Below are positions 11,948 to 44,692 of a stretch of 64,000 nt of DNA, piece by piece. The stretch covers positions 806,001 through 870,000 of the forward strand of contig NZ_JANADO010000001.1 in NCBI RefSeq assembly GCF_024199845.1. Reading direction: 5' to 3'. Both the position numbers and the translations under genes were made by a program. Every line of letters begins with the position of its first letter. The stretch's first letter is position 1. Origin of the DNA: Bradyrhizobium sp. CCGB12. GTDB lineage: Bacteria; Pseudomonadota; Alphaproteobacteria; Rhizobiales; Xanthobacteraceae. Under the pieces are notes generated by a model. The model did no database searches. It saw nothing but the letters and a program-made list of their open reading frames with translations, and was not told the DNA's origin.

Positions 11948-12015
11948 GTGGTCGGCGCTGCGCGGGTTCTGCGTAGCGCCGAAATCCTGCGTCGATTAAA
12001 TCGGTGGAGGGCGGC

Positions 12016-13593: not shown

Positions 13594-13619
13594 CGCGGGC
13601 GAGCGCGGAGGGAGATTCG

Positions 13620-15453: not shown

Positions 15454-15456
15454 ATC

Positions 15457-16896: not shown

Positions 16897-16921
16897 AGAC
16901 GTCAACCAGGAGAAAACCAAC

Positions 16922-17731: not shown

Positions 17732-17740
17732 GGCGTCGCC

Positions 17741-18736: not shown

Positions 18737-19751
18737 GCCGCTGCTGCAAGCCCGAGACATCGAGAAGCATTTTCCGGTGCGCCATGGCCTGTTGCAGCGC
18801 GTCAGCGGACAGCTGCGTGCGGTCGATCGCGTCAGCCTCGGCATCTTTCCCGGCGAGACGTTGGGTGTGGTCGGGGAATCCGGCTGTGGCAAATCTACCC
18901 TCGGCCGCATGCTCGCTGGGCTGTTGCCGGTAACCTCGGGCGAGCTGTCGTTCGACGGCAAGGACGTGTCCTCGCAACGCGGCGCCGCGCTCAAGCAGCT
19001 GCGGCGCGACATGCAGTTCATCTTCCAGGATCCGACCAGCTCGCTCGATCCGCGGATGACGGTGCGTGACATCGTCGCCGAAGGGCTCGACGCGCAGGGC
19101 ATCGCGACCGGCCGCGCCCGGGACATGCTGGTTGCCGACATCCTCGACCGGGTCGGGATGCAGCAGGACGCGCTACAGCGCTATCCGCACGAATTCTCGG
19201 GCGGCCAGCGCCAGCGCATCGGGATCGCCCGGGCGCTGGTGCTGCGGCCAAAGCTGGTGGTCGCCGACGAGCCGGTGTCGGCGCTCGACGTGTCCGTGCA
19301 GTCGCAGGTGCTGAACCTGCTCGTTGCGCTGAAGCGGGAGTTCAAACTAACTTATGTCTTCGTTGCGCATAATCTTGCCGTGGTCAGCTACATCAGCGAC
19401 CGCATCGCGGTGATGTATCTCGGCAAGATTGTCGAAATCGGCGAGGCCGCCAGCCTCTATCACGATCCGCGTCACCCCTACACGAAGGCGTTGCTATCGG
19501 CGATGCCGCAGCCGGATCCCGACAGTAAGCCGGAGCGGATTGTTTTGCGCGGTGATGTGCCGTCTCCGATCGATCCGCCATCGGGATGCCGGTTCCGGAC
19601 GCGCTGCCCGATCGCGCAGGAACTCTGCGCGACGAGCGAGCCTGCACTTGAATCCAAGTTGAGCGAAGCTCGCGATCACCTCGTCGCCTGCCACTTCGCC
19701 TCTTCAGAATCCGGCCGCGCCATAGCGGCCGCTGATCCGACTTCACTCTGA
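18729..19751 (+). CDS. ABC transporter ATP-binding protein, DppF-like, with an altered C-terminus
   Basis: Second ATPase of the importer, 340 residues from the ATG at 18729 inside the end of the DppD-like gene. Walker [11 protein letters not shown]-loop [15 protein letters not shown], signature [15 protein letters not shown], Walker [18 protein letters not shown]-loop FVAHNLAVV; the OppF extension has [15 protein letters not shown]. The family normally ends near DHLVACHFA. Here about 15 extra codons (from about 19706, reading [13 protein letters not shown]) come from the antisense strand of a decayed sdaA fragment, so the original stop was lost at a recombination joint. Core ATPase looks intact. 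Confidence 0.93.
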
Positions 19752-21367: not shown

Positions 21368-22011
21368 ACGAAGGTGAGCTCAGGCAATCCGTGCTGGATG
21401 TGGTTGCCCGTCTGGAAGTCAAGGGTTTCAATCACGGCAGCAGCGGAAATGTCAGCTGCCGCATGGGCGAAGACATTCTCATCACACCGACCGGCGGCAA
21501 TAGCGGCAATACGACGCCCGACCGTCTGGTCCGTTTGAGACGCGATGGAACGGTCGTCGGAGACGGCCTGCCGTCCAGCGAATGGCACATGCATCTGGCC
21601 ATTCTGAACGCCTATCCGCACGTGAACGCGATCGTGCACACCCACGCTGACTGCTGTGTCGCCCTGTCCTGTCTTGCAAAACCAATTCCGGCTTTCCACT
21701 ACATGGTCGCCAGTTTTGGTGGAAACGATGTGCCCTGTGCGCCCTATGCGACCTTCGGCACCCGAGCCCTCGCTGACGGCGCCGTCGCTGCGCTGGAACA
21801 GCGCAAGGCATGCCTGTTGGCGAACCACGGCATGATTGCCGCAGGCAAAGGGCTGCAGGCAGCCTTCGACCTCACGGTGAAGCTCGAAACCCTTGCGCGG
21901 CAATATCTGCTGGCCTGCCAGGCCGGCGCGCCTGCAATCCTTCCCGACGATGAGATGGTGCGGGTGCTCGAACGCTATGGCAGCTACGGCCGCGCTGCCT
22001 TGCCGGCCTGA
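21364..22011 (+). CDS. Class II aldolase/adducin family protein (OtnC-like 3-oxotetronate 4-phosphate decarboxylase candidate)
   Basis: A 215-residue zinc aldolase-fold protein. GFNHGSSGNVSCRMG is the phosphate-binding loop, HTHADC and the later LANHGM supply zinc-ligand histidines, and SSEWHMHLAIL contains the catalytic Glu region. Members are fuculose-phosphate aldolases, ribulose-phosphate epimerases or, next to DUF1537 kinases, OtnC decarboxylases that yield DHAP. I choose the TTG at 21364 as start: GGAGG at 21352-21356 is seven bases upstream, the product begins exactly at the conserved NEGELRQSVLD, and it overlaps the kinase stop by 4 bp. A longer in-frame start at 21283 would run through the kinase end. 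Confidence 0.87.
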   Translation: MNEGELRQSVLDVVARLEVKGFNHGSSGNVSCRMGEDILITPTGGNSGNTTPDRLVRLRRDGTVVGDGLPSSEWHMHLAILNAYPHVNAIVHTHADCCVALSCLAKPIPAFHYMVASFGGNDVPCAPYATFGTRALADGAVAALEQRKACLLANHGMIAAGKGLQAAFDLTVKLETLARQYLLACQAGAPAILPDDEMVRVLERYGSYGRAALPA

Positions 22012-22021
22012 GGAGACAATC

Positions 22022-22810
22022 ATGGAGATCACCGGCAAATCCAAGATCATGTTCGTGTTGGCCGACCCGATCGACCATGTTCGGGCGAGTGCGGTGATCA
22101 ACGCTTATTTTCAGTCGATCGGCGATGACGTCGCGGTGTCGCCGCTCCATATCTTGCCCGGCGATCTCGGAGCGGTCGTCGCGAGCGTTAGGTTGATGCG
22201 CAACGTCTTTGGTTTCGGCGTAACGATTCCGCACAAGACGCAGGTGATCGAGCATCTGGATGAGATCACGCCCACGGCGCGGATGATTGGTGCCGTCAAT
22301 TTCGTCAAGCGAACGGCCGAAGGCCGGCTCATCGGTGACAACCTCGATGCGAGAGGATTCATCTCGAGCCTCGCCCAACACGAGATCGCGGTGCGTGGCC
22401 GGAAGGTGCTCCAGGTCGGGGCGGGTGGAGCGGGGCGCGCGACCGCCTTCGGCTTGGCGGAGGCCGGCGCGCGCGAGCTTACGATCATGAACCGTGACGA
22501 GGAGAAAGCTCGCGCACTCGCGGCGGCCGTGGCCGAGCACTATCCAGCCACGAAAGTCAGCGCCAATCATGCAGAGGCACGGTCATTCGATCTGATCGTC
22601 AACACGACGTCGCTCGGCATGAAAGCGGATGATCCGCTGCCCCTGGATATCGACAGTATCGGTCCGGGCGCTGTGGTCAGCGACATCATTGTGAATCCGG
22701 CCGTCACACGACTTCTCGCCAAGGCTGCCGGGCAGGGCGCGAGGACTATCGGCGGAAAGCCCATGCTCGATGCGCAAATGGCCCTTGTCGCACGGTTCAT
22801 TGCACGCTAG
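22022..22810 (+). CDS. Shikimate dehydrogenase-family oxidoreductase, atypical substrate site
   Basis: A 262-residue AroE-like NAD(P) enzyme. The catalytic Lys is in FGVTIPHKTQVIEHLDE and the catalytic Asp in GDNLDARGF. The Rossmann motif is VGAGGAGRATAFGLAEAGA, followed by NRDEEKA, where a basic residue after NR-like suggests NADP is possible. The shikimate-binding Ser pair of true AroE (HSxSP) is replaced by HVRASAV, so the substrate is probably a smaller hydroxy acid. Third gene of the kinase-aldolase operon (10 bp after the aldolase stop). It may act as the tetronate dehydrogenase for which OtnK/OtnC pathways use other families; inference. Confidence 0.88.
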   Translation: MEITGKSKIMFVLADPIDHVRASAVINAYFQSIGDDVAVSPLHILPGDLGAVVASVRLMRNVFGFGVTIPHKTQVIEHLDEITPTARMIGAVNFVKRTAEGRLIGDNLDARGFISSLAQHEIAVRGRKVLQVGAGGAGRATAFGLAEAGARELTIMNRDEEKARALAAAVAEHYPATKVSANHAEARSFDLIVNTTSLGMKADDPLPLDIDSIGPGAVVSDIIVNPAVTRLLAKAAGQGARTIGGKPMLDAQMALVARFIAR

Positions 22811-22914: not shown

Positions 22915-24024
22915 GTGAATATTGCATCGGCCAGACAAGCGGTATCAGGCGCATCGATCCGCATCAGTCGCCTGGAGAAGCGCTTCGGCGCGGTGTCTGC
23001 CGTCGATGGCGTCGATATTGATATCGCGGCCGGTGAGTTCATCGCCCTGCTCGGGCCGAGCGGCTCCGGGAAGACCACGATCTTGATGAGCGTTGCCGGA
23101 TTCGAATTCCCGACCAGCGGGAGCATTCACGTCGATTCCGAAGATCTGACCTACGTTCCTTCGAACAAGCGCAATCTGGGAATGGTCTTCCAGAACTATA
23201 CGCTGTTCCCCCACATGTCGATTCTCGACAACGTCGCCTTTCCCCTGAAGATGCGTGGCCTTGAGAGGGCTGAGCGCCATGCGCGTGCGGAAGCCGCGCT
23301 CGAAACGGTGCGCCTTGCCGGCTATGGCACGCGTCGTCCGAACGAGCTTTCCGGTGGTCAGCAGCAGCGCGTCGCTTTGGCCCGAGCGATCGTCTATCGC
23401 CCGCGCGTCCTGCTAATGGACGAGCCGCTCAGCGCGCTCGACAAGAATCTGCGCGAGGACATGCAGCTCGAAATCAAGCGGTTGCATGCCGAGCTTGGCA
23501 TCACAGTCATCTTCGTGACTCATGATCAGAGCGAAGCGCTGACCATGGCGGACCGGATCGCCGTTCTGAAGGATGGCAGGATCCAGCAGATCGGGCCCGC
23601 GCGCGAGCTCTATGAGCGTCCTGCCAATCTCTTCACCGCGGGCTTTATCGGCGAGATGAATTTCGTCGACGTTACCGTCGAACGCGCGAGCGACACCGTC
23701 GCGGTGAGGCTGCCGTGGGGCGAGACATGGAGCCTTCCGGCGAATGCTGCCGTCGAGCCGGTGAGGGCGGGCGAGTCGGCAGTTCTGGCGGTGAGGCCGG
23801 AGCGCCTGCAATTTGGTGCCGGCACCGCGCCCGTCATCAAGGTCACGCTCAGCGATATCGTCTATGCCGGATCGGCGCTGCTCCTGATCGGGCGCCTTGC
23901 CGATGGCACAGAGATGCGTGCACGCATCGCCGGTGCCTCCGATGTCGGTCACCTGGCCCCGGGTGATATCGCGTCCTTCTCCGTGCCCATGGAGGCGCTT
24001 CTGCTCTATCGAGGGCGTGAGTGA
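22915..24024 (+). CDS. ABC transporter ATP-binding protein, spermidine/putrescine type (PotA-like)
   Basis: A 369-residue ATPase. Walker A GPSGSGKTT, Q-loop MVFQNYTLFPHMSILDNVAF, signature LSGGQQQRVALARAI, Walker B VLLMDEPLSALDKNLRE, H-loop FVTHDQSEALTMAD. A C-terminal TOBE domain follows (SAVLAVRPERLQFG). GTG start at 22915 has AAGGAGA about ten bases upstream. Heads a four-gene importer operon with the operator TGATATATCA in front. The class imports polyamines, opines, 2-aminoethylphosphonate or similar solutes. Confidence 0.94.
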   Translation: MNIASARQAVSGASIRISRLEKRFGAVSAVDGVDIDIAAGEFIALLGPSGSGKTTILMSVAGFEFPTSGSIHVDSEDLTYVPSNKRNLGMVFQNYTLFPHMSILDNVAFPLKMRGLERAERHARAEAALETVRLAGYGTRRPNELSGGQQQRVALARAIVYRPRVLLMDEPLSALDKNLREDMQLEIKRLHAELGITVIFVTHDQSEALTMADRIAVLKDGRIQQIGPARELYERPANLFTAGFIGEMNFVDVTVERASDTVAVRLPWGETWSLPANAAVEPVRAGESAVLAVRPERLQFGAGTAPVIKVTLSDIVYAGSALLLIGRLADGTEMRARIAGASDVGHLAPGDIASFSVPMEALLLYRGRE

Positions 24025-24899
24025 TGAAGCCGGTGCGATCGGATTTTTGGCATTCCGACGGCCGCCGGCTGAGTGGTCTTTCGACGCTGTTTCTGCTCGC
24101 GCCGTTCTTCGCCGTCATCGCCTTCGTCTTCATCTATCCGATCGTGCAGCTCCTGGTGATCAGCGTCACCGAGCCGCATCCGACCCTCGACAATTACGCC
24201 CGCGTCGTCGGCAACCCGGTTTACGCACGCGTCTTGGCCCGCACGCTCTGGACCGCGACGCTGGTGACGGTTCTGTCGGTGATCCTCGGATTTCCGGTGG
24301 CCTACTATATGAGCCGGTCAAAGGGCGCGGTCGCCGGCTTCGTCGCGGTGTGTGTCATCCTGCCGCTCTGGTCCAGTGTGCTTGTCCGCACGGCAGCCTG
24401 GTCCATTCTGTTCCAGCGCAACGGGTTGATCAACTCGGCGCTGATGGGGCTCGGCCTGACTTCGCAGCCCTTCAAGCTGCTCTATACCCAGAGCGCGGTG
24501 GTCATCGCCATGACCCACGTGCTGCTGCCGTTCATGATATTGCCGATCTACGGTGCCTTGCGCAGCATTCCGAACGATTACACGCGTGCCGCCGCCGTGC
24601 TGGGCGCAACGCGCTGGCGCACCTTCCTCGAAGTCATCCTGCCGCTCAGCCTGCCGGGCGTCGTCAGTGGCTCACTTCTGGTGTTTCTCACGGCGCTTGG
24701 CTTCTTCATCACGCCGGCGCTCCTGGGCTCGCCGCAGGAGATGATGGTCTCGACGCTGGTTTCGCAGCAGATCCGTGAGGTGCTCGACTGGCCTTTCGCG
24801 GCGGCCCTCGTGGGCGTGCTCACCCTGTTCGTGACATTGCTGGCCGTTATCTTCAGCAAGACCCTGCGTTTTGACCGGTTGATGGGGGCAGCGTCGTGA
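24024..24899 (+). CDS. ABC transporter permease, PotB-like
   Basis: Inner-membrane permease of 291 residues. A helix starting LFLLAPFFAVIAFVFIYPIV is followed by about five more, with the EAA loop DYTRAAAVLGATRWRTF near residue 200 and GFFITPALLGSPQEMMV after it, the usual PotB pattern. The ATG at 24024 shares its A with the ATPase stop; a GTG one codon earlier is equally possible. Overlaps the next permease start by 4 bp. Confidence 0.93.
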   Translation: MKPVRSDFWHSDGRRLSGLSTLFLLAPFFAVIAFVFIYPIVQLLVISVTEPHPTLDNYARVVGNPVYARVLARTLWTATLVTVLSVILGFPVAYYMSRSKGAVAGFVAVCVILPLWSSVLVRTAAWSILFQRNGLINSALMGLGLTSQPFKLLYTQSAVVIAMTHVLLPFMILPIYGALRSIPNDYTRAAAVLGATRWRTFLEVILPLSLPGVVSGSLLVFLTALGFFITPALLGSPQEMMVSTLVSQQIREVLDWPFAAALVGVLTLFVTLLAVIFSKTLRFDRLMGAAS

Positions 24900-25690
24900 A
24901 GCCGCCCGCCGACAAGGGATCGCTCGCGCTCGGCGCATGCGTTTATGCCGTGCTGGCCTTCATCATCGTGCCGCTGGTCATCGTCATTCCGATGTCGTTT
25001 GGGCAAAACGATTATCTGGCGTTTCCGCCGTCCGGCTTCACCCTGAAATGGTACGCCGAATATTTCGACAGCCGGCAGTGGCGCGCGGCGACCTTGCTCA
25101 GCCTGCAGGTGGCCTTCCTGACCGCCATCTGCGCCTCGGTGATCGGTACCGCGGCGACCTATGCCATGGTGCGCGGCCGTAGTCGGCTCGTGACCCTGTT
25201 CCAGGTTCTGCTGATCGGGCCGATCATCGTGCCGCATATCGCGATCGCGGTCGGTCTTTATCTCTTCTTCCAGACCATCGGACTCTCCGGCACCATCCCC
25301 GGTTTCGTGCTGGCACATACCGTGCTGACGCTACCCTTCGTCGTCTTCACGATGGCTGCCGCATTGGGAAGGGTGGATGCCAATCTCGAGGCCGCGGCCA
25401 TGAGCTGTGGCGCGACGCGCTTTGCCGCCTTCCGCCACGTCACCCTGCCGCTGATCCTGCCGAGCCTGGCGAGCGGTGCGCTGTTTGCCTTCATCATCTC
25501 GTTTGATGAGCCGGTCGTGTCGTTCTTTCTGTCGGGCGTGCGCCAGAAGACCTTGCCGCGCCGGATGTTCGAGGACATCGAGCAGAACCTGACGCCGATC
25601 ATTCCCGCGATCGCCACGTTGCTGATCGTTCTGTCCATCGCGATTCTACTTGGGGCTCATGCCCTCAGATCCCGCAGCAAGACCCAGTAG
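24896..25690 (+). CDS. ABC transporter permease, PotC-like
   Basis: Second permease of the importer, 264 residues, GTG start overlapping the previous stop. FIIVPLVIVIPMSFG leads to FPPSGFTLKWYAEYF, a signature of PotC-type permeases; the EAA loop is ANLEAAAMSCGATRFAAF, followed by LPSLASGALFAFIISFDEPVVSFF. Six predicted membrane helices. The binding protein follows after 30 bp. Confidence 0.93.
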   Translation: MKPPADKGSLALGACVYAVLAFIIVPLVIVIPMSFGQNDYLAFPPSGFTLKWYAEYFDSRQWRAATLLSLQVAFLTAICASVIGTAATYAMVRGRSRLVTLFQVLLIGPIIVPHIAIAVGLYLFFQTIGLSGTIPGFVLAHTVLTLPFVVFTMAAALGRVDANLEAAAMSCGATRFAAFRHVTLPLILPSLASGALFAFIISFDEPVVSFFLSGVRQKTLPRRMFEDIEQNLTPIIPAIATLLIVLSIAILLGAHALRSRSKTQ

Positions 25691-25720: not shown

Positions 25721-26782
25721 ATGTCGAAGAGCATGTGGACGGCCGCCGCTTGCGCAATGACCGTTGTCTTTTCCGCAACGTTGCCAGTCGCCGCCCAGAA
25801 GCTCGAGGACCAGGTGGTGATTGCCACGACCGGCGGCCTGATGGGCAACACGCTCGCCAAGCATTTCTACGAGCCCTTCAACAAGGCAAAGAACGTGGAA
25901 GTCGTTCCCGTTGCGATCGAGGTTCCCGATCAGTGGGCGCGCGCCAAGGCGATGCAGCGAACCGGCAAGATCGAGTTCGACATCGTCACCGCAACGGGGC
26001 CCGACCTCGTCGGGCGCGCCGACATGCTGGAGAAGATCGATTGTGCCAAGCTGCCGAACGTCCAGAAGTTCGGCGTCTCCGACGCATGCCAGCCTTATGG
26101 CGTCGCGCGCACGACCGGTGGCATGCTGATCACCTACAACACGGAGGCCTTCAAGGAGAAGGCGCCGAAGAATTGGGCCGACTTCTGGGACGTGAAACAG
26201 TTTCCGGGACCGCGCGGCCTGCCGGATACTGGCGATAGCGACTGGTGGGTCCCGGCGGCGGCGCTGCTTGCCGATGGCGTCAAGGCGGACCAGCTTTTCC
26301 CGCTGGATCTCAACCGCGCCTACAAGAAGCTTGATCAGATCAGGCCAAATGTCTCCGTCTGGTGGAAGACCGGCGACCAGGTGCAACAGATCATGCGCAG
26401 CCGCGAGGTGGTTATGGCAATGAGTTACTCCGGGCGCGCGTTGGCCGTCGTGAAAGAGGGCGTGCCGGCGGCCTTGTCCTGGGATCAGGCGATCCGGGAC
26501 ACCGGCTACATGGCCATCCTGAAAGGCGCTCCCGACGTCAACGCGGCCATGGCCTATCTCGACTTCTTCTATGCAAGCTCGGAGGCGCATGTGCCGTTCA
26601 TGCGCGCCGTCAACTATGCGACCGCCAGCAAGTCGGCCATCGAATTGATGAAGCCGGAAGAACGCAATCTCTATGCGACTTCAGCGGAAAACTACGAAAA
26701 ACTCGTGAAGCCGGACTTCGCCTGGATCGGCGAGCATCGCAACGAGCTGCGTGAGCGCTGGATGGCCTGGCTGACTCGCTAA
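25721..26782 (+). CDS. ABC transporter substrate-binding protein, PotD/family 1 type
   Basis: Periplasmic binding protein of 353 residues with a Sec signal peptide ending near VAAQ (residue 26). Mature protein has VVIATTGGLMGNTLAKHFYEP, then FDIVTATGPDLVGRADML, then GGMLITYNTEAFKEKAPKNW and FPGPRGLPDTGDSDWWVPA, resembling the PotD and AfuA/opine-binding branch. SD AGAGGAG precedes the ATG. The polyamine-binding acidic residues cannot be assigned confidently, so the ligand may be a zwitterionic amide rather than a polyamine. Confidence 0.92.
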   Translation: MSKSMWTAAACAMTVVFSATLPVAAQKLEDQVVIATTGGLMGNTLAKHFYEPFNKAKNVEVVPVAIEVPDQWARAKAMQRTGKIEFDIVTATGPDLVGRADMLEKIDCAKLPNVQKFGVSDACQPYGVARTTGGMLITYNTEAFKEKAPKNWADFWDVKQFPGPRGLPDTGDSDWWVPAAALLADGVKADQLFPLDLNRAYKKLDQIRPNVSVWWKTGDQVQQIMRSREVVMAMSYSGRALAVVKEGVPAALSWDQAIRDTGYMAILKGAPDVNAAMAYLDFFYASSEAHVPFMRAVNYATASKSAIELMKPEERNLYATSAENYEKLVKPDFAWIGEHRNELRERWMAWLTR

Positions 26783-26838: not shown

Positions 26839-27183
26839 ATGGATCAGACCAGTGACCCCAACGCGTTGCGCTACGTCATCGACTCCAAAAGGCTCGACCT
26901 CGTGGAGGAGTTCCGTGCAAGCCCGCTGGGGGTTCACAGTCCGGAGTTGCGCAAGCTGCTGGCGCGAATGCGATGGGGCCGGCCGGAAGGCCGGTTGGTC
27001 CTCATCGTGCTCGAGCCGGGAAAGGCGTGGCGGCTGTCGCGGATCCCCAGGCGTCGCGGGGATCCGATGCCTTTTGTCGACGATTGCGTCTTCACCTCGC
27101 TCGCCGAGGCCGAATGGCATGTTTTCAAGCTGCGCTGGCTGGAGATGACCGGCGTAGCCCTACCGGCGGAGATGCTGGGGTGA
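26839..27183 (+). CDS. Small subunit-like protein of N,N-dimethylformamidase (alpha-subunit type)
   Basis: A 114-residue soluble protein. The pattern VEEFRASPLGVHSPEL-LARMRW-GRLVLIVLEPGKAWRLSRI-FTSLAEAEWHVFKLRWLE parallels the ~130-residue alpha subunit of Paracoccus/Alcaligenes dimethylformamidase (EEHAANPFGYRKHP, then an YIYSEREWDAYRIA-like strand, then EEEAMHAVFLRR). This is recalled resemblance, not a search. It overlaps the large-subunit-like gene by 4 bp, the same order and coupling as dmfA1-dmfA2. The ATG at 26839 has AGGA seven bases upstream; an ATG at 26821 is less well placed. In the known enzyme the small helical subunit caps the large one. Confidence 0.75.
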   Translation: MDQTSDPNALRYVIDSKRLDLVEEFRASPLGVHSPELRKLLARMRWGRPEGRLVLIVLEPGKAWRLSRIPRRRGDPMPFVDDCVFTSLAEAEWHVFKLRWLEMTGVALPAEMLG

Positions 27184-29441
27184 TCTACAAGACCAACGAG
27201 TATCTCGGCTATCCCGATCGCATCAGCGTGCCGGCGGGAGAGCAGGTGAAGTTCCAGCTCAGCAGCAAGCGGCGGAAGGTGAAAGTCGAGGTGCTGCGGC
27301 TGCGCTGCGGCGACGTCGACGCCAACGGTCCTGGTTTCAAGTACGAGATCATGGCAAGCAACATCGACGGCGAGCATGCTTGCCTCGATCAACCCATCCG
27401 GCCCGGCTCCAACGCCGTCATCAAGCATGATGGCGTGCTGGTGCCCACCGGTGCGCACTGGTCCTTCGGCGCCTACGTCTATCCCACGCGTATTGCCGAC
27501 AATCCCAGGGCCGTGATGGGGAATTGGTGCCAGGGTTCGGGACGGGGTTATGCGCTCGAGCTCGACGAGGATGGGCGTCCGGTACTGGTCCTCGGCCGAG
27601 CAGAGGGTGGGCCGGTTCGTTTCGTCCTCGACGTCAGGCTGCGTGAACGCGTCTGGGCTTTCATATCGTGCGCGCTCGATTTCGGGGCAGCGTCGGCCAC
27701 GGTTTCGTTGATCGTTCCGGCAGATGGCGTTCGCCCGGCGGCGGCCCACTCGCAATCCTTTGCACTACCGCGGAGCCTTGATGTCGATTCCGGACTGCCT
27801 TTCCTGATTGCGGCCCATCATTTGAACGGCGATCGGCAATATGCCGCTCATTTCGACGGCAAGATCGAGGCTCCGCGAATCTTTTCGCAGCAACTCGACG
27901 CGGAAGAGTTGCGTGTATTCGAGTGTGGTCCGCGGACGGGCGTGACCGAGGCCGGGCTCGTCGCGTTCTGGGATTTTTCCGATGGAATCTCGACGCTATT
28001 AATCAAGGACATCTCGCCGAACTGCCTGCATGGCCGCTTGCACCAATTGCCTCGCAGAGGCGTCACCAGCTTTCACTGGTCCGGCGCCGTACACGACTTC
28101 CGGCTTTCGCCGCGCGAATATGCCGCCATCCATTTCCACAGTGACGACATCTATGATTGTCAGTGGCAGACCACCTGCGCGCTCGATGTGCCCGTTGCTT
28201 GGCGATCGGGCGTCTATGCGCTGCGGCTGACGCCGACGAGCGGTGACCCCGACGGGCAGTACGAGAGCTATGTCACCTTCTTCGTGACACCGGGCAGGCA
28301 GACCAAGCGCGCCGATCTTGTAGTGGTAGCGTCGATTGGGACCTATCTTGCCTATGCCAACAGTGCGCTACGGCTCTATCAGGTTCATTTCGAGACGCTC
28401 ATGGAGCACGTGCTGTGGCTGCCGCTGGACGATGTCTTCATGCAGGAGAACCCCGAGATCGGTCAGTCAACCTATGATAGCCATGTCGACGGATCGGGCC
28501 GCGCCTACAGCTCCTGGCTGCGTCCCATACTCAACATGCGGCCGCGCGGCTACTGGTTCAACCTGATCAACGATACCCACATTCTCGACTGGCTCGAGGA
28601 GAAAGGCATCGCCTACGACCTGATCACGGATGTCGAGCTTGACCGGGAGGGCGCGCGGGCGCTTGCGCCTTACCGGGCGATGATGACGCCGACCCATCCG
28701 GAATATTTCAGCTTCAACATGATGAACGCGATCATGGCGTATCAGAACGCCGGCGGGCGGCACATCTCCATGGGCGGCAATGCGTTCTACTGGCGCTGCG
28801 GCTTTCATCCGGCAGCACCGGCCGCGCTCGAAGTGCGTCGCGGCATGGCAGGGACACGGACCTGGGAGTCCGAACCGGGCGAGGTGCATCTTGCCGGCAC
28901 CGGCGAGCCAGGCTCGCTGTGGCGGCACTCGGGTTTTGCGCCGCAGAAGCTCGTCGGCGTCGGGTTTTCCGCCATGATCAACGACACCTGCGGCTATTAC
29001 CTGCGCACCGCCGAAAGCGAGGACGGGCGCGTCGCCTTCATCTTCGAGGGCACGGGCCGCCACGAGAAGTTCGGCGATTTCGGCTTTCGCTACAACGGCG
29101 CGGTCGGCAGCGAGATCGACCGGTATGATCTCGAACTGGGAACGCCGCGGCACGCGTTGCGGATAGCGACCTCGGAAGGACTGGGAGCCGGCGCGCTGCC
29201 GACGCCGGAAGAGTTTCGAACTGTAGTCGATGGACTGGACGGCACACAGAACGCGCTTGTGCGCGCCGACATGGTGTTCTTCGAGACCGCCAATGGCGGT
29301 GCCGTCTTCGCGACGGGATCGATCACCTATGGCATGTCGCTGAGCCACAACAATTACGACAACAACATCAGCACGATCACGTTGAACGTCGTCAATCGGT
29401 TCCTCGATCCAAGGCCTTTCGTCATATCTGCCGGCGCCTAG
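27180..29441 (+). CDS. N,N-dimethylformamidase large-subunit-like amidohydrolase
   Basis: A 753-residue protein from the GTG at 27180 that overlaps the small-subunit stop. It matches the length and order of the DMFase beta subunit (about 760). An N-terminal beta domain (GYPDRISVPAGEQVKFQLS) is followed by a LamG/ConA-like sandwich (about 80-250) and a C-terminal amidotransferase-like core. DMFase uses a mononuclear iron held by two Tyr and one Glu. Candidates here are Tyr389/392 in GTYLAYAN, Tyr432 in TYDSHVDGSG and Glu508 in THPEYF, with His506. LNMRPRGYWFN and GGRHISMGGNAFYWR are family blocks. It should hydrolyse an amide or formamide, yielding acid plus amine. Substrate need not be DMF. 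Confidence 0.85.
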   Translation: MIYKTNEYLGYPDRISVPAGEQVKFQLSSKRRKVKVEVLRLRCGDVDANGPGFKYEIMASNIDGEHACLDQPIRPGSNAVIKHDGVLVPTGAHWSFGAYVYPTRIADNPRAVMGNWCQGSGRGYALELDEDGRPVLVLGRAEGGPVRFVLDVRLRERVWAFISCALDFGAASATVSLIVPADGVRPAAAHSQSFALPRSLDVDSGLPFLIAAHHLNGDRQYAAHFDGKIEAPRIFSQQLDAEELRVFECGPRTGVTEAGLVAFWDFSDGISTLLIKDISPNCLHGRLHQLPRRGVTSFHWSGAVHDFRLSPREYAAIHFHSDDIYDCQWQTTCALDVPVAWRSGVYALRLTPTSGDPDGQYESYVTFFVTPGRQTKRADLVVVASIGTYLAYANSALRLYQVHFETLMEHVLWLPLDDVFMQENPEIGQSTYDSHVDGSGRAYSSWLRPILNMRPRGYWFNLINDTHILDWLEEKGIAYDLITDVELDREGARALAPYRAMMTPTHPEYFSFNMMNAIMAYQNAGGRHISMGGNAFYWRCGFHPAAPAALEVRRGMAGTRTWESEPGEVHLAGTGEPGSLWRHSGFAPQKLVGVGFSAMINDTCGYYLRTAESEDGRVAFIFEGTGRHEKFGDFGFRYNGAVGSEIDRYDLELGTPRHALRIATSEGLGAGALPTPEEFRTVVDGLDGTQNALVRADMVFFETANGGAVFATGSITYGMSLSHNNYDNNISTITLNVVNRFLDPRPFVISAGA

Positions 29442-29474
29442 CTGGCTGGCGACTTCGGCTTATCAGGTAATATC

Positions 29475-29495
29475 GCCATCCCAGTTGGGGATGGC
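29475..29495. other. Intergenic hairpin between the two amidohydrolase-like genes
   Basis: A perfect 8-bp stem GCCATCCC (29475-29482) / GGGATGGC (29488-29495) with a five-base loop in the 74 bp gap. No T-run follows, so it is more likely an mRNA processing or stability element than a terminator. Confidence 0.4.
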
Positions 29496-29515
29496 ACTTC
29501 GAACAAGAGGCTGTC

Positions 29516-31192
29516 ATGTCAGACAAGCGCGAGTTTCAATCGCCGGAAATGGGATCCGTCAACGTCGCTCCCCGCAAGACGCGTCCGATGCATGCGGACG
29601 AGCACTGGGGCAGCCAGCCATGGTACGAGGCGCCGCGCGGCGATCCTGCCATACCTGAAGTCTACACCTACACCGACGCGATGTCGTACGATCCCGGCGA
29701 CGAGGTCGTCTTCCATTCGACGGCAACGGCCAAGGCCTGGCGGCTGCAAATTTATCGCGACGGTCTCGAGCCGGAAATGGTGCGCGAGGTCGCAGCAGTT
29801 GATGGGGTATTCGCGCCGACGCCGGACAATGCTTATTGCAGCGGCTGCAACTGGCCTGTCTCGCACCGCTGGAAGCTGCCGCCCGACCTCCGTTCGGGCT
29901 TCTATCGCGTGGTGTCCTCCTGCGAACGGCCGAACGGCGCCCGCTTCGTCCAGCACCATTTCTTTGTCGTGCGGCCGACCGAGAAGACGCGGCGGGCCAG
30001 GATCCTGATGATCCTGCCGACCGGCACCTGGACCGCCTACAACGATTTCGGTGGGGCCAATCATTATTTCGGCGTCGAAGGTCCGAACCGCGATGAACCG
30101 TCGCCGGTGCTATCGCTGCAGCGGCCGTGGACGCGCGGCATGGTCTGGCTGCCCGCAGGCGCGCCGCGCATCTGCGCTGATCCCGCGCCCGAGATGGGCG
30201 ATGCACCGCGCTATCCGATGAAGGAGTGGGCCTTCGCCAATGGCTTTGGCCAGTACTACGCCGCCGCGGGCTGGGCTCAGTACGACCGCCATTTCGTGCT
30301 CTGGGCGGAGAGCGAGGGCTATGAGCTCGACATGATCACTCAGACTGACCTGCACTATCGGCCGGAGCTGCTCGACGCCTACCCTTGCGTGACCATCATC
30401 GGCCATGACGAATACTGGACCTGGGAAATGCGCGAGGCGATCGAGCGTTATGTCGAGGCTGGTGGCCGCCTCGCGCGCTTCGGCGCCAACTTCCTTTGGC
30501 AGATCAGGCTCGAGGACGATGGTCAGCGTCAGGTCTGCCACAAGTTCAAGGCCATCCACAGGGATCCGGTCGTCGGTACCGACAAGGCACGTCGTATGAC
30601 GTCGGCCTGGGAAGACCGCAATGTCCGCTGGCCCGGCTCGTCGACCGTCGGGGTGAACGGCGTGCACGGCCTCTACGCGTCTTGGGGCGGCTTCGCGCCG
30701 AACGGCCAAAAAGGCTTCACGGTGTATCGCCCCGAACATTGGGCCTTTGCCGGCACCGGGCTGCATTATGCCGACATCTTCGGCGACAAGCAGCGCATCT
30801 TCGCCTACGAGGTCGACGGGCTCGACTATACGTTCCGTCACGGCCTTCCGTTTCCCGTTCCCGTCGAAGGCCAGCCCGGGTCCATCCAGATTCTCGCCAT
30901 GGCACCGGCGGTGCTGGCGGAGGACGAGTTCCCGGGCGAGGGCTTCCGATACTACGTGCGCAGCAGCGACCATGAAGGCCTGGTGGAGTGCGTCACTGGC
31001 GAGGTCACGCCGGAAGGACTTGCCCGCTACAAATATGGCTCCGGCATGATGGTACACATGTCCCGCGGCAAGGGCGAGGTGTTGACGGCTGCCACTTGCG
31101 AATGGGTGATGGGACTCAAGCGCGGTGATCCCTTCACGCAGCGCATCACCCGCAACATCCTCGATCGCTTTACCTCAGAGACGCGCGGCTGA
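29516..31192 (+). CDS. Second DMFase large-subunit-family protein (C-terminal core only)
   Basis: A 558-residue paralogue of the preceding core without the LamG-like domain. Corresponding blocks are TGTWTAYNDFGGANHYFG for the Tyr region, TIIGHDEYWTWEMREAIE with His297 and Glu299 for the HxE motif, YVEAGGRLARFGANFLWQIR for the GGR block, and a C-terminal GSGMMVHMSRGKGEVLTAAT. No signal peptide. The ATG at 29516 has AAGAGG upstream. The retained Tyr and HxE positions argue for a metal site, so it may be a second hydrolase on the same pathway or act on a different intermediate. Confidence 0.8.
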   Translation: MSDKREFQSPEMGSVNVAPRKTRPMHADEHWGSQPWYEAPRGDPAIPEVYTYTDAMSYDPGDEVVFHSTATAKAWRLQIYRDGLEPEMVREVAAVDGVFAPTPDNAYCSGCNWPVSHRWKLPPDLRSGFYRVVSSCERPNGARFVQHHFFVVRPTEKTRRARILMILPTGTWTAYNDFGGANHYFGVEGPNRDEPSPVLSLQRPWTRGMVWLPAGAPRICADPAPEMGDAPRYPMKEWAFANGFGQYYAAAGWAQYDRHFVLWAESEGYELDMITQTDLHYRPELLDAYPCVTIIGHDEYWTWEMREAIERYVEAGGRLARFGANFLWQIRLEDDGQRQVCHKFKAIHRDPVVGTDKARRMTSAWEDRNVRWPGSSTVGVNGVHGLYASWGGFAPNGQKGFTVYRPEHWAFAGTGLHYADIFGDKQRIFAYEVDGLDYTFRHGLPFPVPVEGQPGSIQILAMAPAVLAEDEFPGEGFRYYVRSSDHEGLVECVTGEVTPEGLARYKYGSGMMVHMSRGKGEVLTAATCEWVMGLKRGDPFTQRITRNILDRFTSETRG

Positions 31193-31213: not shown

Positions 31214-32086
31214 ATGTTCGATCGAGCCACCGGCGACCGACAGCCCGCGTCGCGAACGACCGAAGTCGAGGAGCTTGCGCGCATTGCCAGGAGCCTTCGG
31301 CGTGACGTCATCAATCTGGTCGCACCCACGGGCCAGGGTTATGTGCAGCAAGGATTGGGGGCAGCCGACCTGTTCGCGGTCCTGTATTTCTCCGAGCTGC
31401 GTCTCGATCCGTTGGACCCCGAATGGCCGGATCGCGACCGATTCCTGTTGTCCACGGCGCACAATACGGCCATCTTCTATGCCACGCTTGCGGCACGCGG
31501 TCTGGTCGCCTGTGAGGCAGTCCATTCTTATTGTGGCGACGGATCGCCGTTCGAAATCAATGCATCGGAGCGCGTCGGGACCGTCATAGAAGCGACGCTC
31601 GGCTCGCTGGGGCAGGGGCTGTCTGTCGGGATCGGCATGGCGCTCGCCGCGCGCCGCCGGCACTCCCAGGCTCGGACCTATGTGCTGCTGGGCGACGGTG
31701 AATTGCAGGAAGGCCAGCTCTGGGAGGCGGCCCTGTTCGCGGGAAGCGCGCGTCTTTCCAATCTCTGCCTGATCGTCGACGACAACCGGATGCAGGTCGA
31801 AGGACATATCGATCAGGTCGTCACGGTGGCGCCGATCGACGCGAAGTTCGCTGCGTTCGGCTGGGCTGTCGAGACCGTCGATGGGCACGACATCTCCGCG
31901 CTGCTGGCCAGCCTCGAGCGTGCGCGCGGCGAGGAACGCCCGACATGTCTGGTGGCCCGCACGCTTGCCGGCAAGGGTGTGCCGTCGCTCGAGGGGCTGC
32001 TCGCTCACAATCTGAAACTGCCGCCCACCGTGGCGTCGAGGGCGCTGACCGAGCTTTCGCAATCTGCCAGGGAGGGATCAAGATGA
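31214..32086 (+). CDS. Transketolase-like protein, N-terminal (TPP-binding) half
   Basis: A 290-residue split-transketolase alpha subunit. The thiamine diphosphate motif is LLGDGELQEGQLWEAALFAG through LIVDDN (GDG-N about 30), preceded by GSLGQGLSVGIGMALAARR. The His-containing loop usually reading KGHAS is STAHNT here, so His is kept but neighbours differ. Start ATG has AAGGAGAA upstream. Overlaps the C-terminal half by 4 bp, the usual arrangement. Split enzymes of this type transfer two-carbon ketol units or, in catabolic loci, act on unusual ketoses or apiose/erythrulose-like sugars. Confidence 0.9.
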   Translation: MFDRATGDRQPASRTTEVEELARIARSLRRDVINLVAPTGQGYVQQGLGAADLFAVLYFSELRLDPLDPEWPDRDRFLLSTAHNTAIFYATLAARGLVACEAVHSYCGDGSPFEINASERVGTVIEATLGSLGQGLSVGIGMALAARRRHSQARTYVLLGDGELQEGQLWEAALFAGSARLSNLCLIVDDNRMQVEGHIDQVVTVAPIDAKFAAFGWAVETVDGHDISALLASLERARGEERPTCLVARTLAGKGVPSLEGLLAHNLKLPPTVASRALTELSQSAREGSR

Positions 32087-33081
32087 TCGCCGAGAACGAT
32101 CGGGACTCGCTCGAAGTTCTGGATTTCACGGCGCGCAACGCCAGCGCCGCGCCCGCGGTCAAGCACTATGGGGAAGCCCTCGTCGCGGCCGCACAGCGTG
32201 ATCCGCGTATCGTCTGCCTGACGGCTGACCTGACGCTGCCGACAGAGACCGACCTGTTCCGGGACACTCTCCCCGACCGGTTTCATCAGATCGGCATTGC
32301 CGAAGCCAACATGATAGGGATCGCCGGCGGCCTCGCACGGTCCGGCGAAATTCCCTTTGTCCATAGCTTCTGCGTATTTGCCACCCGCCGCTGCTACGAC
32401 CAGATTGCCATGCAGGTCGCCTATCCGCGTGCGAACGTGAAGATCGTGGGCGTCATCCCGGGCCTCACGACGTTGCTCGGGGTCTCACACCAGGCGATCG
32501 ACGATCTCGCGCTGATGCGCGCCTTGCCAAACATGACCGTGATCGAGCCCTGCGGTCCAGGCGACGTACGCGCGGCCGTAGCCGCGGTGGCTGCACATGA
32601 AGGGCCGGTCTATCTGCGGCTCAAGCGTGCCGATGGCGCGGATGAATCGGCTTCAGCGAAGTCGGACTTTCAGATCGGAAGAATGCAGGTGCTCCGTCGC
32701 GGCGCAGATGGCGTGCTGGTGGCCTGCGGCATGATGGTGGCGATTGCGCTACGCGCCGCTGAGACGCTTGCGTGCGAAGGCTTGTCGTTGACGGTGGTCG
32801 ACATGCCGACAGTGAAGCCGCTTGATCCGGATCTGGCCGAGCTGGCACGCTCTGCACCTTTGGTGATCGTGGCCGAAAACCACTCCATTATCGGCGGATT
32901 GGGTAGTGCGGTGGCCGAGCTGTTGCTCGAAGAAGGTGTTCATACAGGATTTCGCCGCATCGGTGTCGGCGACTCCTTCGCCGAGGGCGGCTCGACCGGC
33001 TATTTGTTCGAGAAATACGGTCTGTCGAAGCGCGCGATCATCGATGCGGTCGAGGATCTGCGCCAAAGGCGGCGTCCTTGA
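32083..33081 (+). CDS. Transketolase-like protein, C-terminal (pyrimidine-binding) half
   Basis: A 332-residue partner. LPDRFHQIGIAEANMIGIAGG contains the catalytic Glu (IAEANM), followed by PFVHSFCVFATRRCYDQI, SHQAIDDLALMRALPNMTVIEPC and the C-terminal transketolase domain with VAENHSIIGGLGSAVAELL. The ATG at 32083 overlaps the preceding stop (ATGA) after GGGAGGGATCAAG. Its stop is 8 bp from the convergent end of the GntR gene. Confidence 0.9.
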   Translation: MIAENDRDSLEVLDFTARNASAAPAVKHYGEALVAAAQRDPRIVCLTADLTLPTETDLFRDTLPDRFHQIGIAEANMIGIAGGLARSGEIPFVHSFCVFATRRCYDQIAMQVAYPRANVKIVGVIPGLTTLLGVSHQAIDDLALMRALPNMTVIEPCGPGDVRAAVAAVAAHEGPVYLRLKRADGADESASAKSDFQIGRMQVLRRGADGVLVACGMMVAIALRAAETLACEGLSLTVVDMPTVKPLDPDLAELARSAPLVIVAENHSIIGGLGSAVAELLLEEGVHTGFRRIGVGDSFAEGGSTGYLFEKYGLSKRAIIDAVEDLRQRRRP

Positions 33082-33089: not shown

Positions 33090-33812
33090 TCAGTCTTCGT
33101 CCGGTGGGATATTGGAGGTGCCGCCGTGCTTCTCCAAAAGCCGAACGAGATTCTGGCCGCCTTCCATCATGTCTGCCTGGATTGCTTCGCGAACCTTGTC
33201 CGGCCGTCGCTGCCGAAGATATTTGAGCACCGATAGATGCTGATGCTCGTTCGAATAGGTCGGTGGCGCGTGGGGGTAGAGAAAATTCAGCAATGGGCCG
33301 TTGCGCATCCAGATGTCGTCGAGGATGGCGAGAACCTCCGGAAGTCCCGATCCATCATAGAGACTGCGGTGGAATTGCCAGTTGACACGAACCGCATCGG
33401 GCCATCTGTGCTCCTTTTCGGCACTGATTAGCTCGTGATGGATCGCCTCCATCCTGTCAATGCCGGCCTCGGAAATGCGCGTCGTCGCGTGCTCCGCGGC
33501 GAGGCCCTCGAGAAACAGCCTGACGGTTCGGAGCTCGATATATTGCTGGGCTGTCATGTGGGCTACCATGATCGAGCGCCCGGCCTGCATCTCCAGTGCG
33601 CGCCCGCGCACGAGCTGCATCAAGGCTTCCCGAATGGGCGTCTCCGACACATTCATGGTCGCGGCAAGTTCGCGGATCTTGAAACGGTGACCAGGCGAGA
33701 ACCGGCCTTCCATCAGCGCCTGGCGCAGGTTGTTGTAGACAAGACTCGTCAAGCTGTCGCGGGCGACCGGTCCTACCCCGCGATCACTCAGTCTCAGGTC
33801 AACATCAGCCAT
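33090..33812 (-). CDS. GntR-family transcriptional regulator, FCD subfamily
   Basis: A 240-residue regulator. Winged HTH at about 20-90 (SLVYNNLRQALMEGRF, LAATMNVSETPIREALMQLV), FCD domain with RVNWQFHRSLY and later NEHQHLSVLKYL supplying metal-binding His. Transcribed divergently from the aminotransferase gene, and the shared 266 bp region holds operator TGATATATCA (site 3) plus a degenerate TTATATATAA at 33871-33880 near its own start. Being the only regulator between the sdaA copies, it is the best candidate controller of the whole 20-35 kb block. FCD ligands are usually hydroxy- or sugar acids, consistent with the acid-sugar kinase. Confidence 0.92.
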   Translation of the reverse strand: MADVDLRLSDRGVGPVARDSLTSLVYNNLRQALMEGRFSPGHRFKIRELAATMNVSETPIREALMQLVRGRALEMQAGRSIMVAHMTAQQYIELRTVRLFLEGLAAEHATTRISEAGIDRMEAIHHELISAEKEHRWPDAVRVNWQFHRSLYDGSGLPEVLAILDDIWMRNGPLLNFLYPHAPPTYSNEHQHLSVLKYLRQRRPDKVREAIQADMMEGGQNLVRLLEKHGGTSNIPPDED

Positions 33813-34078: not shown

Positions 34079-35338
34079 ATGCCGGGATTGAATAGGAGAC
34101 AGGATGCTGCGCTGCGCGCTCGCGCTGAAAAGGTCGTTCCGAGCGGGATGTGGGGGCATCTTCATGCCGCCAAGTTGCCGGACGCCTACCCACAATTCTT
34201 TCGCCGCGGCGAGGGCGGAGTGCTCTGGGATGTCGACGGCAACCGGTATGTCGACTTTATGTGCAGTTGGGGGCCCAACCTGCTCGGTCACCATCATCCC
34301 GAAGTAGACGAGGCCGCCGAGCGCCAACGGCGCGACGGCGACTGTCTCAACGGCCCCGCCGAAGTGATGGTCGAGCTGGCCGAGCTGGTCGTGGACATGG
34401 TTGGGCACGCCGACTGGACGCAGTTCCAGAAGAACGGCACCGACGCGACAACAACTTGCGTCACCATCGCGCGGGCGGCGACGGGGAAGCGAAAGATAGT
34501 GGTTGCGAAGGGCGCCTATCATGGCGCCGTGCCGTGGTGCTCACCCTCGCTTCTCGGCGTGACTGCGGAAGATCGCGCCCATCTGTCGTATTTCAAGTTC
34601 AACGACGTCGAGAGCCTTGAGGAAGCGGTGAAGGCAGCAGGCGGTGATCTTGCTGGCATCCTGATCTCTGCTTTCCGCCATGACATGGGCTTTGACCAGG
34701 AGCTCCCCTCTCCGGCGTTCGCCCAGGCTGCAAGGCGTCTGTGCACTGACAAGGGCGCCGTGCTGATCATCGATGAAGTCCGCGCCGGGTTTCGTCTCGA
34801 TACAGCCGGAAGTTGGGAAGCGCTGGGCGTCCGTCCCGACATGTCGGCCTGGAGCAAAGCTATGGCAAACGGCTACGCTCTTGCAGCCATCACCGGGGCC
34901 GACTGGCTACGTCGCGCGGCGTCCCAGGTTTTCGTGACGGGTTCGTTCTGGGCGGGTGCGGTCTCGATGGCAGCTGCCGTCGCGACATTGAAGATCGTAC
35001 GCCGGGACGACATTCCAAGCCGCCTGGCCTATCTCGGACGATTATTGCGTGATGGTCTGGAAACCCGTTCTCGCCAATTCGGCCAGTCCATTCGCCAGTC
35101 GGGCCCCGCGCAAATGCCAACGGTGCTATTCGACGACGATCCAGATTTTCGGAAGGGCTTTGCTTTCTGCAACGCCATGCTCGAGCGCGGAGTGTACTTC
35201 CATCCCAAGCACAACATGTTTCTCTGCGCCGCCCATACCGAGGCCGACATCGCCGCGGCGCTCGATGCAGCCGAGCACAGCTTTTCAGTTGTGGCGGCAC
35301 TTGGCACGGGGAGCGAGGGGCGGATGGGTCGATCTTGA
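34079..35338 (+). CDS. Class III aminotransferase, glutamate-1-semialdehyde aminomutase-like
   Basis: A 419-residue PLP enzyme. RAEKVVPSGMWGHLH at the N-terminus, FMCSWGPNLLGHHHPEV, the GTDATTTCVTIARAATGK PLP-phosphate block, KGAYHGAVPW, LIIDEVRAGFR with the cofactor Asp, and the Schiff-base Lys260 in SAWSKAMANGYALAAITG. This subgroup includes GSA 2,1-aminomutase and aminotransferases of catabolic loci. The GSA role in haem synthesis is unlikely here because alphaproteobacteria make ALA by the Shemin route. It may deaminate the amine released by the amidohydrolases. Own promoter with operator site 3. Confidence 0.9.
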   Translation: MPGLNRRQDAALRARAEKVVPSGMWGHLHAAKLPDAYPQFFRRGEGGVLWDVDGNRYVDFMCSWGPNLLGHHHPEVDEAAERQRRDGDCLNGPAEVMVELAELVVDMVGHADWTQFQKNGTDATTTCVTIARAATGKRKIVVAKGAYHGAVPWCSPSLLGVTAEDRAHLSYFKFNDVESLEEAVKAAGGDLAGILISAFRHDMGFDQELPSPAFAQAARRLCTDKGAVLIIDEVRAGFRLDTAGSWEALGVRPDMSAWSKAMANGYALAAITGADWLRRAASQVFVTGSFWAGAVSMAAAVATLKIVRRDDIPSRLAYLGRLLRDGLETRSRQFGQSIRQSGPAQMPTVLFDDDPDFRKGFAFCNAMLERGVYFHPKHNMFLCAAHTEADIAAALDAAEHSFSVVAALGTGSEGRMGRS

Positions 35339-35379: not shown

Positions 35380-36759
35380 TCAGCACTCGGGCAAGTTGAC
35401 CGCCAATCCGCCCAGGCTCGTTTCCTTGAACTTCGCGTTCATGGCCTCGCCCGTCTGCCGCATTGCCTCGATGCAGTTGTCCAGCGGCATGAAATGAGAT
35501 CCGTCGCCGCGCAGCGCTAGCGAGGCCGCCGCGACCGCCTTGATGGCGCCGATGCCGTTGCGCTCGATGCACGGGACCTGGACCAGCCCCGCTGCGGGAT
35601 CACAAGTCATGCCGAGGTGGTGTTCGAGGGCGATCTCCGCGGCATTTTCAATTTGCTCGGGCGATCCGCCCAGCACCGCACAGAATCCGGCCGCGGCCAT
35701 CGCGGCCGCCGCCCCAACCTCGCCTTGACAACCAGCCTCGGCTCCAGAGATCGAGGCGTTGTGCTTGATCAACCCGCCGATCGCCGCAGCCGTAAGCAGG
35801 AAATCGGCAATCTTGTCGGGCTCCGCCCCGATGCAGTGATCCAAATAATATTTCAGTACCGCGGGCACGACGCCGGCGGCCCCATTAGTCGGCGAGGTTA
35901 CTACTCTGCCGCCGGCCGCGTTTTCCTCGTTCACGGCCATCGCGTAGACACTCAGCCAGTCGGCTGCCGCGTGGGGCTGAGAGCGATTGGCCCGCCGTTC
36001 AGCCATCAATTGCTGATGAATCCGCGCGGCCCTGCGACGCACGTGGAGGCCCCCGGGCAACTCGCCTTCCTGACTCAGCCCCCGTTCGATGCACCCGTTC
36101 ATGACCGACCAGAGACGGACGAGGCCGCGTTCGACTTCTTCAGGTGTACGGAGGTGGGTCTCATTCGCGCGCTTCATGTCCGCTATGGATAACCCACTCT
36201 CGCGCGCCATGCGCAGCATCGCGCTCGCGTTCGCAAATGGATAGGGCCACGGTACCGCGTCAGCGGCAGCCGGCGATGCTTCGCGCTCCCGCGCCGTCAC
36301 CACGAAACCGCCGCCGATGGAATAATAGGTCTCGTCCAACATCACCGCCCCGGTGGAATCGCGGGCGGACAGAACTAGCCCGTTGGCATGACCGGGCAAT
36401 GGTGGCCCGTAGTCGAAGACGATGTCGAGGGCAGGGTCGAACTTGAGCGGCGGCAGCCCATTGGGGCGCAGGAGACGACCGCGTCGGAGATCGTCGAGCT
36501 GGCGTTCGGCCGCGTCGAAATCGAATTCGGCGGGCGTCCAGCCGAGCAGGCCCAGCGCCACGGCGCGATCCGTGGCGTGGCCTTTCCCCGTGAATGCGAG
36601 CGATCCATGCAAGGTCGCTCCGACGGCGGCCGATTGGCGACCAGACGGATTCTGCCGCAAGAGATTGAGGAAATGTCCGGCGGCCGTCATGGGCCCCATC
36701 GTATGCGACGACGAGGGGCCGATGCCGATCTTGAAGACGTCGAATACGCTCAGAAACAT
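35380..36759 (-). CDS. sdaA: L-serine ammonia-lyase (serine dehydratase), iron-sulfur type
   Basis: Single-chain L-serine dehydratase of 459 residues converting serine to pyruvate and ammonia. [24 protein letters not shown] is the universal start of the beta domain, which fixes the ATG at 36759 although the frame is open further upstream. The alpha domain carries [21 protein letters not shown] and cysteines in GCQGEVG and [16 protein letters not shown] that bind the 4Fe-4S cluster. Intact, converging on the aminotransferase with 41 bp between. A decayed copy of its middle lies at 19705-19966 in the same orientation. It could feed pathway serine into pyruvate. Confidence 0.95.
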
Positions 36760-36819
36760 CACGCGCCTCTGGTCGAACCGGCTTTCTGCACGACAGGCTG
36801 TGCGGTAGCAGCCCAACCC

Positions 36820-39470: not shown

Positions 39471-39494
39471 GGCTGCACGTTTTGGTGGTGTCCA

Positions 39495-39517: not shown

Positions 39518-39649
39518 CTCTAACAACATTATATTTGTCGAACAAGCAATCTAAGGATGGAATGGCGAGGCTTTCCAGCAAAAGCCAACGCGAAGATGGG
39601 AGTTGCTGGACGGTGAGGTATAACGCGCTCTCATAGGTAGGTCGTGGCG

Positions 39650-44642: not shown

Positions 44643-44692
44643 TCTGGCCGCGGTGGCGGGCAATCAGTCACCGCCCATAGCCTGGATACGAG

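Follow-up and report, generated by a model that had tools for sequence, protein, structure and literature searches.

In the 64,000-nucleotide stretch of Bradyrhizobium sp. CCGB12 DNA analyzed here (the window), relatives of N,N-dimethylformamidase (DMFase), namely, a small/large subunit pair and a second large-type protein, are encoded among genes for an ABC importer, an aminotransferase, and sugar-acid enzymes. Because of this setting, the DMFase relatives probably open an uncharacterized N-containing sugar-acid compound and not dimethylformamide. We give an even chance to the proposal that the cluster as a whole serves the regulated breakdown of a compound taken up from outside, in which an amide joins a small sugar-acid-type part to an amine part.

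The pair comprises a 114-residue protein (26839..27183, plus strand, ATG start) and a 753-residue protein (27180..29441, plus strand, GTG start), with the GTG of the latter overlapping the stop of the former by 4 nt. A 558-residue protein (29516..31192, plus strand, ATG start) follows. Re-reading of the open reading frames (ORFs) gave the same lengths, coordinates, and coupling as an earlier sequence-only reading of these three frames. The motifs named in that reading lie at residues 388 (TYLAYAN) and 506 (HPEY) of the 753-residue protein and at residues 171 (TWTAYND) and 297 (HDEYW) of the 558-residue protein.

Both large proteins were recovered by the proposed search with the C-terminal domain of DMFase: Pfam DMFA2_C (PF20254) matches the 753-residue protein with 294.6 bits and the 558-residue protein with 245.6 bits, against a curated cut-off of 27. 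The 753-residue protein also contains a LamG-type domain (PF13385), and its solved relatives include DMFase (6lvb; E = 7.4e-120) and N-acetyl-(R)-beta-phenylalanine acylase (8huy; E = 1e-122). The DMFA2_C and solved-structure matches of the large proteins far exceed chance.

In the Paracoccus enzyme (PMC7686228), the iron of DMFase is held by Tyr399, Tyr440, and Glu521; activity is lost in the mutants Y440A, E521A, H519A, N547A, and E657A; and the pocket is constricted by Phe693 from the adjacent large subunit. HMMER alignment places the iron ligands at Tyr392, Tyr432, and Glu508 of the 753-residue protein and the catalytic residues His519, Asn547, and Glu657 at His506, Asn534, and Glu645. All six positions are invariant in the 37 aligned rows, which were chosen from 120 listed of 564 large-subunit relatives and are at least 42% identical. 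By analogy with the Paracoccus enzyme, from which both metal and activity are transferred, the pair would be a DMFase-type amidohydrolase with Fe(III) in its active site. The gate differs: in an alignment that adjoins a small gap here, Phe693 corresponds to Thr681, with Thr in 37/37 rows, and acylase 8huy has Ser at the aligned position. Thr in place of Phe693 points to a wider pocket and to an amide bulkier than dimethylformamide (DMF), and this replacement makes a substrate other than DMF likely, as had been proposed.

The six retained iron and catalytic residues and the presence of a small subunit would also be expected of an ordinary dimethylformamidase that lies in a sugar-acid locus by chance, but Phe693 is replaced in all aligned rows and no methylamine or formate gene was found among the neighboring genes scanned. 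We regard such a coincidence as very improbable, and DMFase proper was rejected as the main reading of the pair because gate residue and neighboring genes differ. The sequence-only reading had placed known DMFase genes in C1/methylamine contexts, an emphasis that did not hold for the family: the large-subunit profile at E = 1e-60 matches 64/385 genomes of the class (some matches being partial), and one solved relative, 8huy, takes its name from a bulky amide other than DMF.

As a single sequence, the 114-residue protein retrieved nothing above noise from the PDB (best E = 0.92) and no family in the Pfam or NCBIfam copies scanned. A profile of 30 relatives, 29 of which have PF26354 as a precomputed domain label, retrieved the DMFase small subunit, 6lvb_B, at an E value of 2.6e-5. 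This was the sole significant solved match, the only other one having an E value of 0.58. The predicted structure (mean pLDDT, 89.5) likewise retrieved DMFase small-subunit chains first in Foldseek, with an E value of 7.3e-5 and TM scores of 0.70/0.65 for 6lvb_B. A homologous small-subunit gene, as judged by profile and Foldseek, thus adjoins the large-subunit gene in the window, and together with the Pfam and PDB matches these results support the proposed DMFase-family small/large pair.

Gene neighborhoods were compared in the best 80 of 417 confirmed relatives of the 558-residue paralogue, found by scanning one genome per species in 84,980 species; many of these 80 loci come from related genera, and neighbors were seen to ~10 kb. 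A large-subunit gene is present in 16 of the 80, with a small-subunit gene upstream in 15 of the 16. The same holds for 20 of 23 further loci chosen by large subunit, which consist of 3 named plasmid stretches (the first three useful hits) and stretches from 20 of 64 matching genomes, 3 of the 23 ending at contig ends. At an E value of 1e-4, no small-subunit gene was found in the other 64 paralogue loci, which lack a large-subunit gene and some of which are short. Since the small-subunit gene tracks the large subunit and occurs in 0/64 paralogue-only loci, the paralogue appears to work without it.

The paralogue had been described as a relative of the C-terminal core of the 753-residue protein. 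The kinship stands, but the match is wider than the core: the predicted fold superposes on DMFase in VIA-align, with residues 29..557 aligned to 1..758 of 6lvb_A over 420 residues and ~20% identity. Foldseek superposition is looser (TM, 0.48 to 0.57; rmsd, 6.7 to 11.2). From the model alignment, the length, and the lack of a Pfam LamG match in this protein, we infer that it has retained the Ig-like domain at the N terminus alongside a ThuA-like domain and has no pentraxin domain in the middle.

A Tyr/Tyr/Glu cluster had been expected in both large proteins. It is complete in the 753-residue protein, whereas an equivalent of Tyr440 in the paralogue is not established. Tyr399, His519, Glu521, Asn547, and Glu657 have clear equivalents in Tyr175, His297, Glu299, Asn325, and Glu432, which are invariant in 52/52 rows (from 120 listed of 2,922 relatives plus 14 locus translations; lowest identity, 42%). 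For Tyr440 the two methods disagree: hhalign places it near Tyr233, and MAFFT, applied to every third row of both alignments (13 large-subunit and 18 paralogue rows), aligns it with Gln and shows no Tyr in 18/18 paralogue rows, mostly Gln or Glu. The MAFFT result and the low identity over the structural match would suit a related enzyme whose metal site is changed or lost and which is no iron amidohydrolase. We consider this unlikely, as the other five positions are invariant and either of two further conserved tyrosines, Tyr184 (52/52 rows) or Tyr233 (49/52), the latter close to the hhalign position, could serve as ligand. The same genome contains two more DMFA2_C domains outside the window (L001, 8954577-8955815; L002, 2207892-2209124). 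The open frames that hold them have 2,009 and 1,694 codons, and the two domains have the motif TWxAYNxWGGxNxY in common with the paralogue.

Upstream of the pair, the first cluster gene encodes an OtnK-type kinase (20081..21367, plus strand; DUF1537, with SBD_N [PF07005] and NBD_C [PF17042]). It scores 395.6 bits with the NCBIfam 3-oxo-tetronate kinase model NF043035, exceeding the equivalog cut-off of 350, and the earlier description of the locus as sugar-acid type is thereby upheld. The overlapping class II aldolase gene (21283..22011, plus strand, start uncertain; PF00596) may encode an aldolase or a decarboxylase: its product misses the FucA-type model (199.3 of 264 bits) and the model for OtnC, 3-oxo-tetronate-4-P decarboxylase (NF043034; 115.8 of 250 bits), and reaches no curated cut-off among the matches listed (25 of 33 families). 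A shikimate-dehydrogenase-like (AroE-like) oxidoreductase follows (22022..22810, plus strand; PF08501/PF01488 on the longer ORF 21893-22810), with 2egg, 4k28, and 5-ketofructose reductase 7cok as best solved relatives. Neither an OtnI isomerase nor an LtnD/DenD (6PGDH-type) dehydrogenase was recognized among the cluster genes scanned, that is, all but the two permeases.

The importer genes are also on the plus strand and encode a PotA-type ATPase (22915..24024; PF00005; TIGR01187, 361.3 versus 355.6 bits), two permeases (24021..24899 and 24896..25690; assigned from ORF, position, and recurrence in relatives), and a solute-binding protein of the opine/polyamine-binder class (25721..26782; PF13416 and solved relatives). 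Among solved structures, the binding protein comes closest to a mannopine binder (5l9s; E = 2.9e-52), with further matches to a polyamine binder (4eq7), MotA (5l9g), and an agropine binder (6hly). Opine uptake was considered from the mannopine match and downgraded to a hint because the polyamine binder matches well too.

Downstream of the paralogue are the N-terminal (31214..32086, plus strand; PF00456) and C-terminal (32083..33081, plus strand; PF02779/PF02780 on the longer ORF 31945-33081) halves of a split transketolase, a GntR/FCD regulator (33090..33812, minus strand; PF00392 and PF07729) that recurs beside the paralogue, and a class III aminotransferase (34079..35338, plus strand; PF00202). 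The aminotransferase reaches no curated cut-off among the matches listed (25 of 68 families) and is 50% identical over 397 aligned positions to aminopentol aminotransferase FumI (6hbs; E = 2.3e-136). A FumI-type enzyme would be expected to transfer the amino group of a 2-amino-3-hydroxy compound to pyruvate; the label FumI-like, given on identity, is a lead only.

Two neighbors are doubtful members of the system. An L-serine ammonia-lyase gene (35380..36816, minus strand; TIGR00720, 593 versus 345.1 bits) also adjoins the cluster in Bradyrhizobium stylosanthis (L019). Directly upstream, 12004..19751 (plus strand) holds an Opp-type importer (read from ORFs), an amidase-signature enzyme (PF01425), and a short-chain dehydrogenase (SDR) (PF13561); an arrangement of Opp, amidase (33 to 34% identity), paralogue, aminotransferase, and transketolase is found in two other loci (L036 and L051). 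Elsewhere in the window, a second catabolic-looking block (38541-47911) encodes, by Pfam, a lyase of the HpcH/HpaI type and proteins of the polysaccharide-deacetylase and isochorismatase types; its LysR-like, CoA-transferase-like, and branched-chain-importer-like frames were assigned from ORFs only. Near-identical direct repeats (54741-56435; 94% over 300 nt and 95% over 150 nt, ~900 nt apart) hold two versions of a regulator-like frame, one of them shorter when compared by eye. A minus-strand frame (7468-8853) resembles, by eye, a phage-type integrase, and no tRNA gene was found in the window.

The neighborhoods of the paralogue were divided by identity, not by tree, into 54 closer loci (L005 to L058) and 26 more distant loci (L059 to L084). 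The OtnK-type kinase is present in 30 of the closer loci, several of the 24 kinase-free ones being short, and in none of the more distant loci. The 30 kinase loci include the aldolase in 28 cases, the FumI-like aminotransferase in 22, and the AroE-like gene in 21; an AroE-like gene or SDR of at least 26% identity lies somewhere in 27. Flanks of at least 8 kb on each side are available for 40 of the 54 closer loci, which reduce to 27 when one locus is kept per genus (bins without a genus name counted as their own genera, with a second genus entry for two Bradyrhizobium loci of a different type). Among these 27, the kinase occurs in 15 and a class III aminotransferase in 14. The Bradyrhizobium sp. 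CCGB12 genome (9.43 Mb) has 3 DUF1537-type genes and 17 class III aminotransferases (from 18 matches, two of which share a frame), so that chance would place a kinase in ~0.6% and a class III aminotransferase in ~3.6% of 20-kb neighborhoods, by arithmetic from this one genome only. ORF calling and home-made profiles miss some genes, and the tblastn table is more sensitive.

The kinase, aldolase, AroE-like, aminotransferase, and transketolase genes occur together in the window and in four other loci (L011, L012, L019, and L022). Five loci (L017, L023, L024, L026, and L037) have the kinase, aldolase, and AroE-like gene with no aminotransferase in reach; conversely, L036 and L051 have the FumI-like aminotransferase and transketolase without the kinase, as do L027 and L056 with a class III aminotransferase only 25 to 26% identical. 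The occurrence of the two blocks apart, in different loci, suggests that the two halves of one amide take separate routes.

Strict coupling of the pair to the aminotransferase was rejected: away from the paralogue, a class III aminotransferase lies within the stretch covered in just 4 of the 23 large-subunit loci, one of them being this same cluster, and the two are therefore not obligate partners. The coupling holds better for the paralogue, as in the 14 of 27 one-per-genus loci. On a Variovorax plasmid, the neighbors of the pair include an SDR, an Opp importer, and a class III aminotransferase that falls in the FumI-like group; the stretch covered has no kinase. On a plasmid stretch of Agrobacterium larrymoorei (L117), a large subunit 44.5% identical to that of the window neighbors a PLP enzyme of the DSD1 family, an SDR, a RidA protein, and an Opp-type importer; the annotation of this stretch includes no class III aminotransferase.

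Within the genus, the large subunit was found at an E value of 1e-200 or better in 17/265 genomes, that of the window included, and the cluster is thus probably an accessory trait. The DMFA2_C domain occurs in 20/60 near relatives and 0/14 control genomes, and the large-subunit protein itself finds matches at an E value of 1e-100 in 9/398 genomes of the phylum. The nearest named loci are from Bradyrhizobium, and the source is closely related to known species of this genus; in B. stylosanthis, 14 of 15 compared cluster genes are 92 to 99% identical and one transketolase half is 87% identical.

We propose the following route. (i) The Pot/opine-type importer, recognized from its ATPase and binding-protein families, would take up a compound of the kind postulated above. 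(ii) The pair would hydrolyze its amide, with two Tyr and Glu holding iron and His, Asn, and Glu assisting the attack of water; the residues come from alignment, and metal and activity are assumed from Paracoccus DMFase. The paralogue, which shares the fold, may be another amidohydrolase that needs no small subunit and cleaves either a related amide or a second amide bond. (iii) The freed amine would be converted by the FumI-like aminotransferase to a ketone adjoining a carbinol, which the split transketolase could cleave. (iv) The AroE-like enzyme may oxidize the acid half to 3-oxo-tetronate or a close relative, which the kinase, placed by its family, would phosphorylate and the class II aldolase would convert to triose phosphate. 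The GntR protein is the probable regulator.

The same genes could instead form one linear pathway for a beta-amino acid, with no acid branch: the amidohydrolases would free, e.g., 3-amino-2,4-dihydroxybutanoate from an N-acyl form, and the FumI-like aminotransferase would turn it into 3-oxo-tetronate for the kinase and aldolase. The closest solved relatives include an acylase of an N-acetyl-beta-amino acid, the amine that FumI attacks lies next to a carbinol (PMC2933618), and 3-oxo-tetronate needs another source because no tetronate-route isomerase or 6PGDH-type dehydrogenase was recognized among the genes scanned. The more distant loci also fit, with a class III aminotransferase in 10/26 and a beta-keto-acid cleavage enzyme in 10/26 (not all the same loci); that of L068 passes NF053538, a 3,5-dioxohexanoate model, with 522 versus 430 bits. 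Against a linear pathway, the AroE-like enzyme would be left idle, although an AroE-like gene or SDR is so frequent in kinase loci, and the aminotransferase is missing from 8 of the 30, two of which are short (L015 and L058). We hold this alternative to be possible but rather doubtful. The loci with the cleavage enzyme (L064, L068, L071 to L073, L077, and L079 to L082) also contain differing combinations of a class III aminotransferase, a GNAT acetyltransferase, a histone-deacetylase-like hydrolase, a LysR regulator, and an amino-acid importer.

We put forward as a tentative idea that the catabolism of N-acylated amino-polyols or beta-amino acids generally begins with iron-tyrosinate DMFA2_C amidohydrolases, which would release an amine as substrate for a class III aminotransferase. 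Here, a four-carbon sugar-acid amide would be split and its halves degraded by exchangeable AroE/kinase/aldolase and aminotransferase/transketolase blocks. Relatives of the large subunit are widespread, and the public plasmid records listed mostly carry the name of an industrial solvent for them, as dimethylformamidase. The cluster links the DMFase family to a kinase whose substrate is assigned and an aminotransferase of a characterized kind; such linkage offers a concrete path to the natural substrate of an unusual iron site and suggests that many present dimethylformamidase annotations are misleading.

The sequence-only reading had regarded the system as the best candidate for an undescribed one. 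The individual parts are members of known families; for the combination, no publication on such a DMFase/sugar-acid cluster was found in the open-access literature searched (most subscription journals lie outside this scope), and the substrate is putative. Paracoccus DMFase (6lvb; PMC7686228) resembles the pair in its small and large subunits, the LamG-type domain of the latter, the Tyr/Tyr/Glu iron ligands, and the catalytic His, Asn, and Glu. It differs in its Phe693 gate, where the pair has Thr, and in gene setting, and the window cluster has in addition a second large-type protein. In the acylase entries 8huy, 8i59, and 8i5a, whose activity is taken here from the PDB molecule name (no publication on the enzyme was found in the open-access literature), the small-subunit profile finds no chain, whereas the larger protein of the window has a small subunit.

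In D-erythronate and L-threonate catabolism, OtnK and OtnC act with OtnI and LtnD. The window shares with this route an OtnK-type kinase that passes the equivalog cut-off and a class II aldolase, which fails the OtnC model, but lacks a recognized OtnI or LtnD among the cluster genes scanned; it adds the amidohydrolases, the importer, the AroE-like enzyme, and the aminotransferase. The last is, like FumI of Sphingopyxis sp. MTA144 (PMC2933618), a class III aminotransferase, but differs from it in sitting in a sugar-acid cluster.
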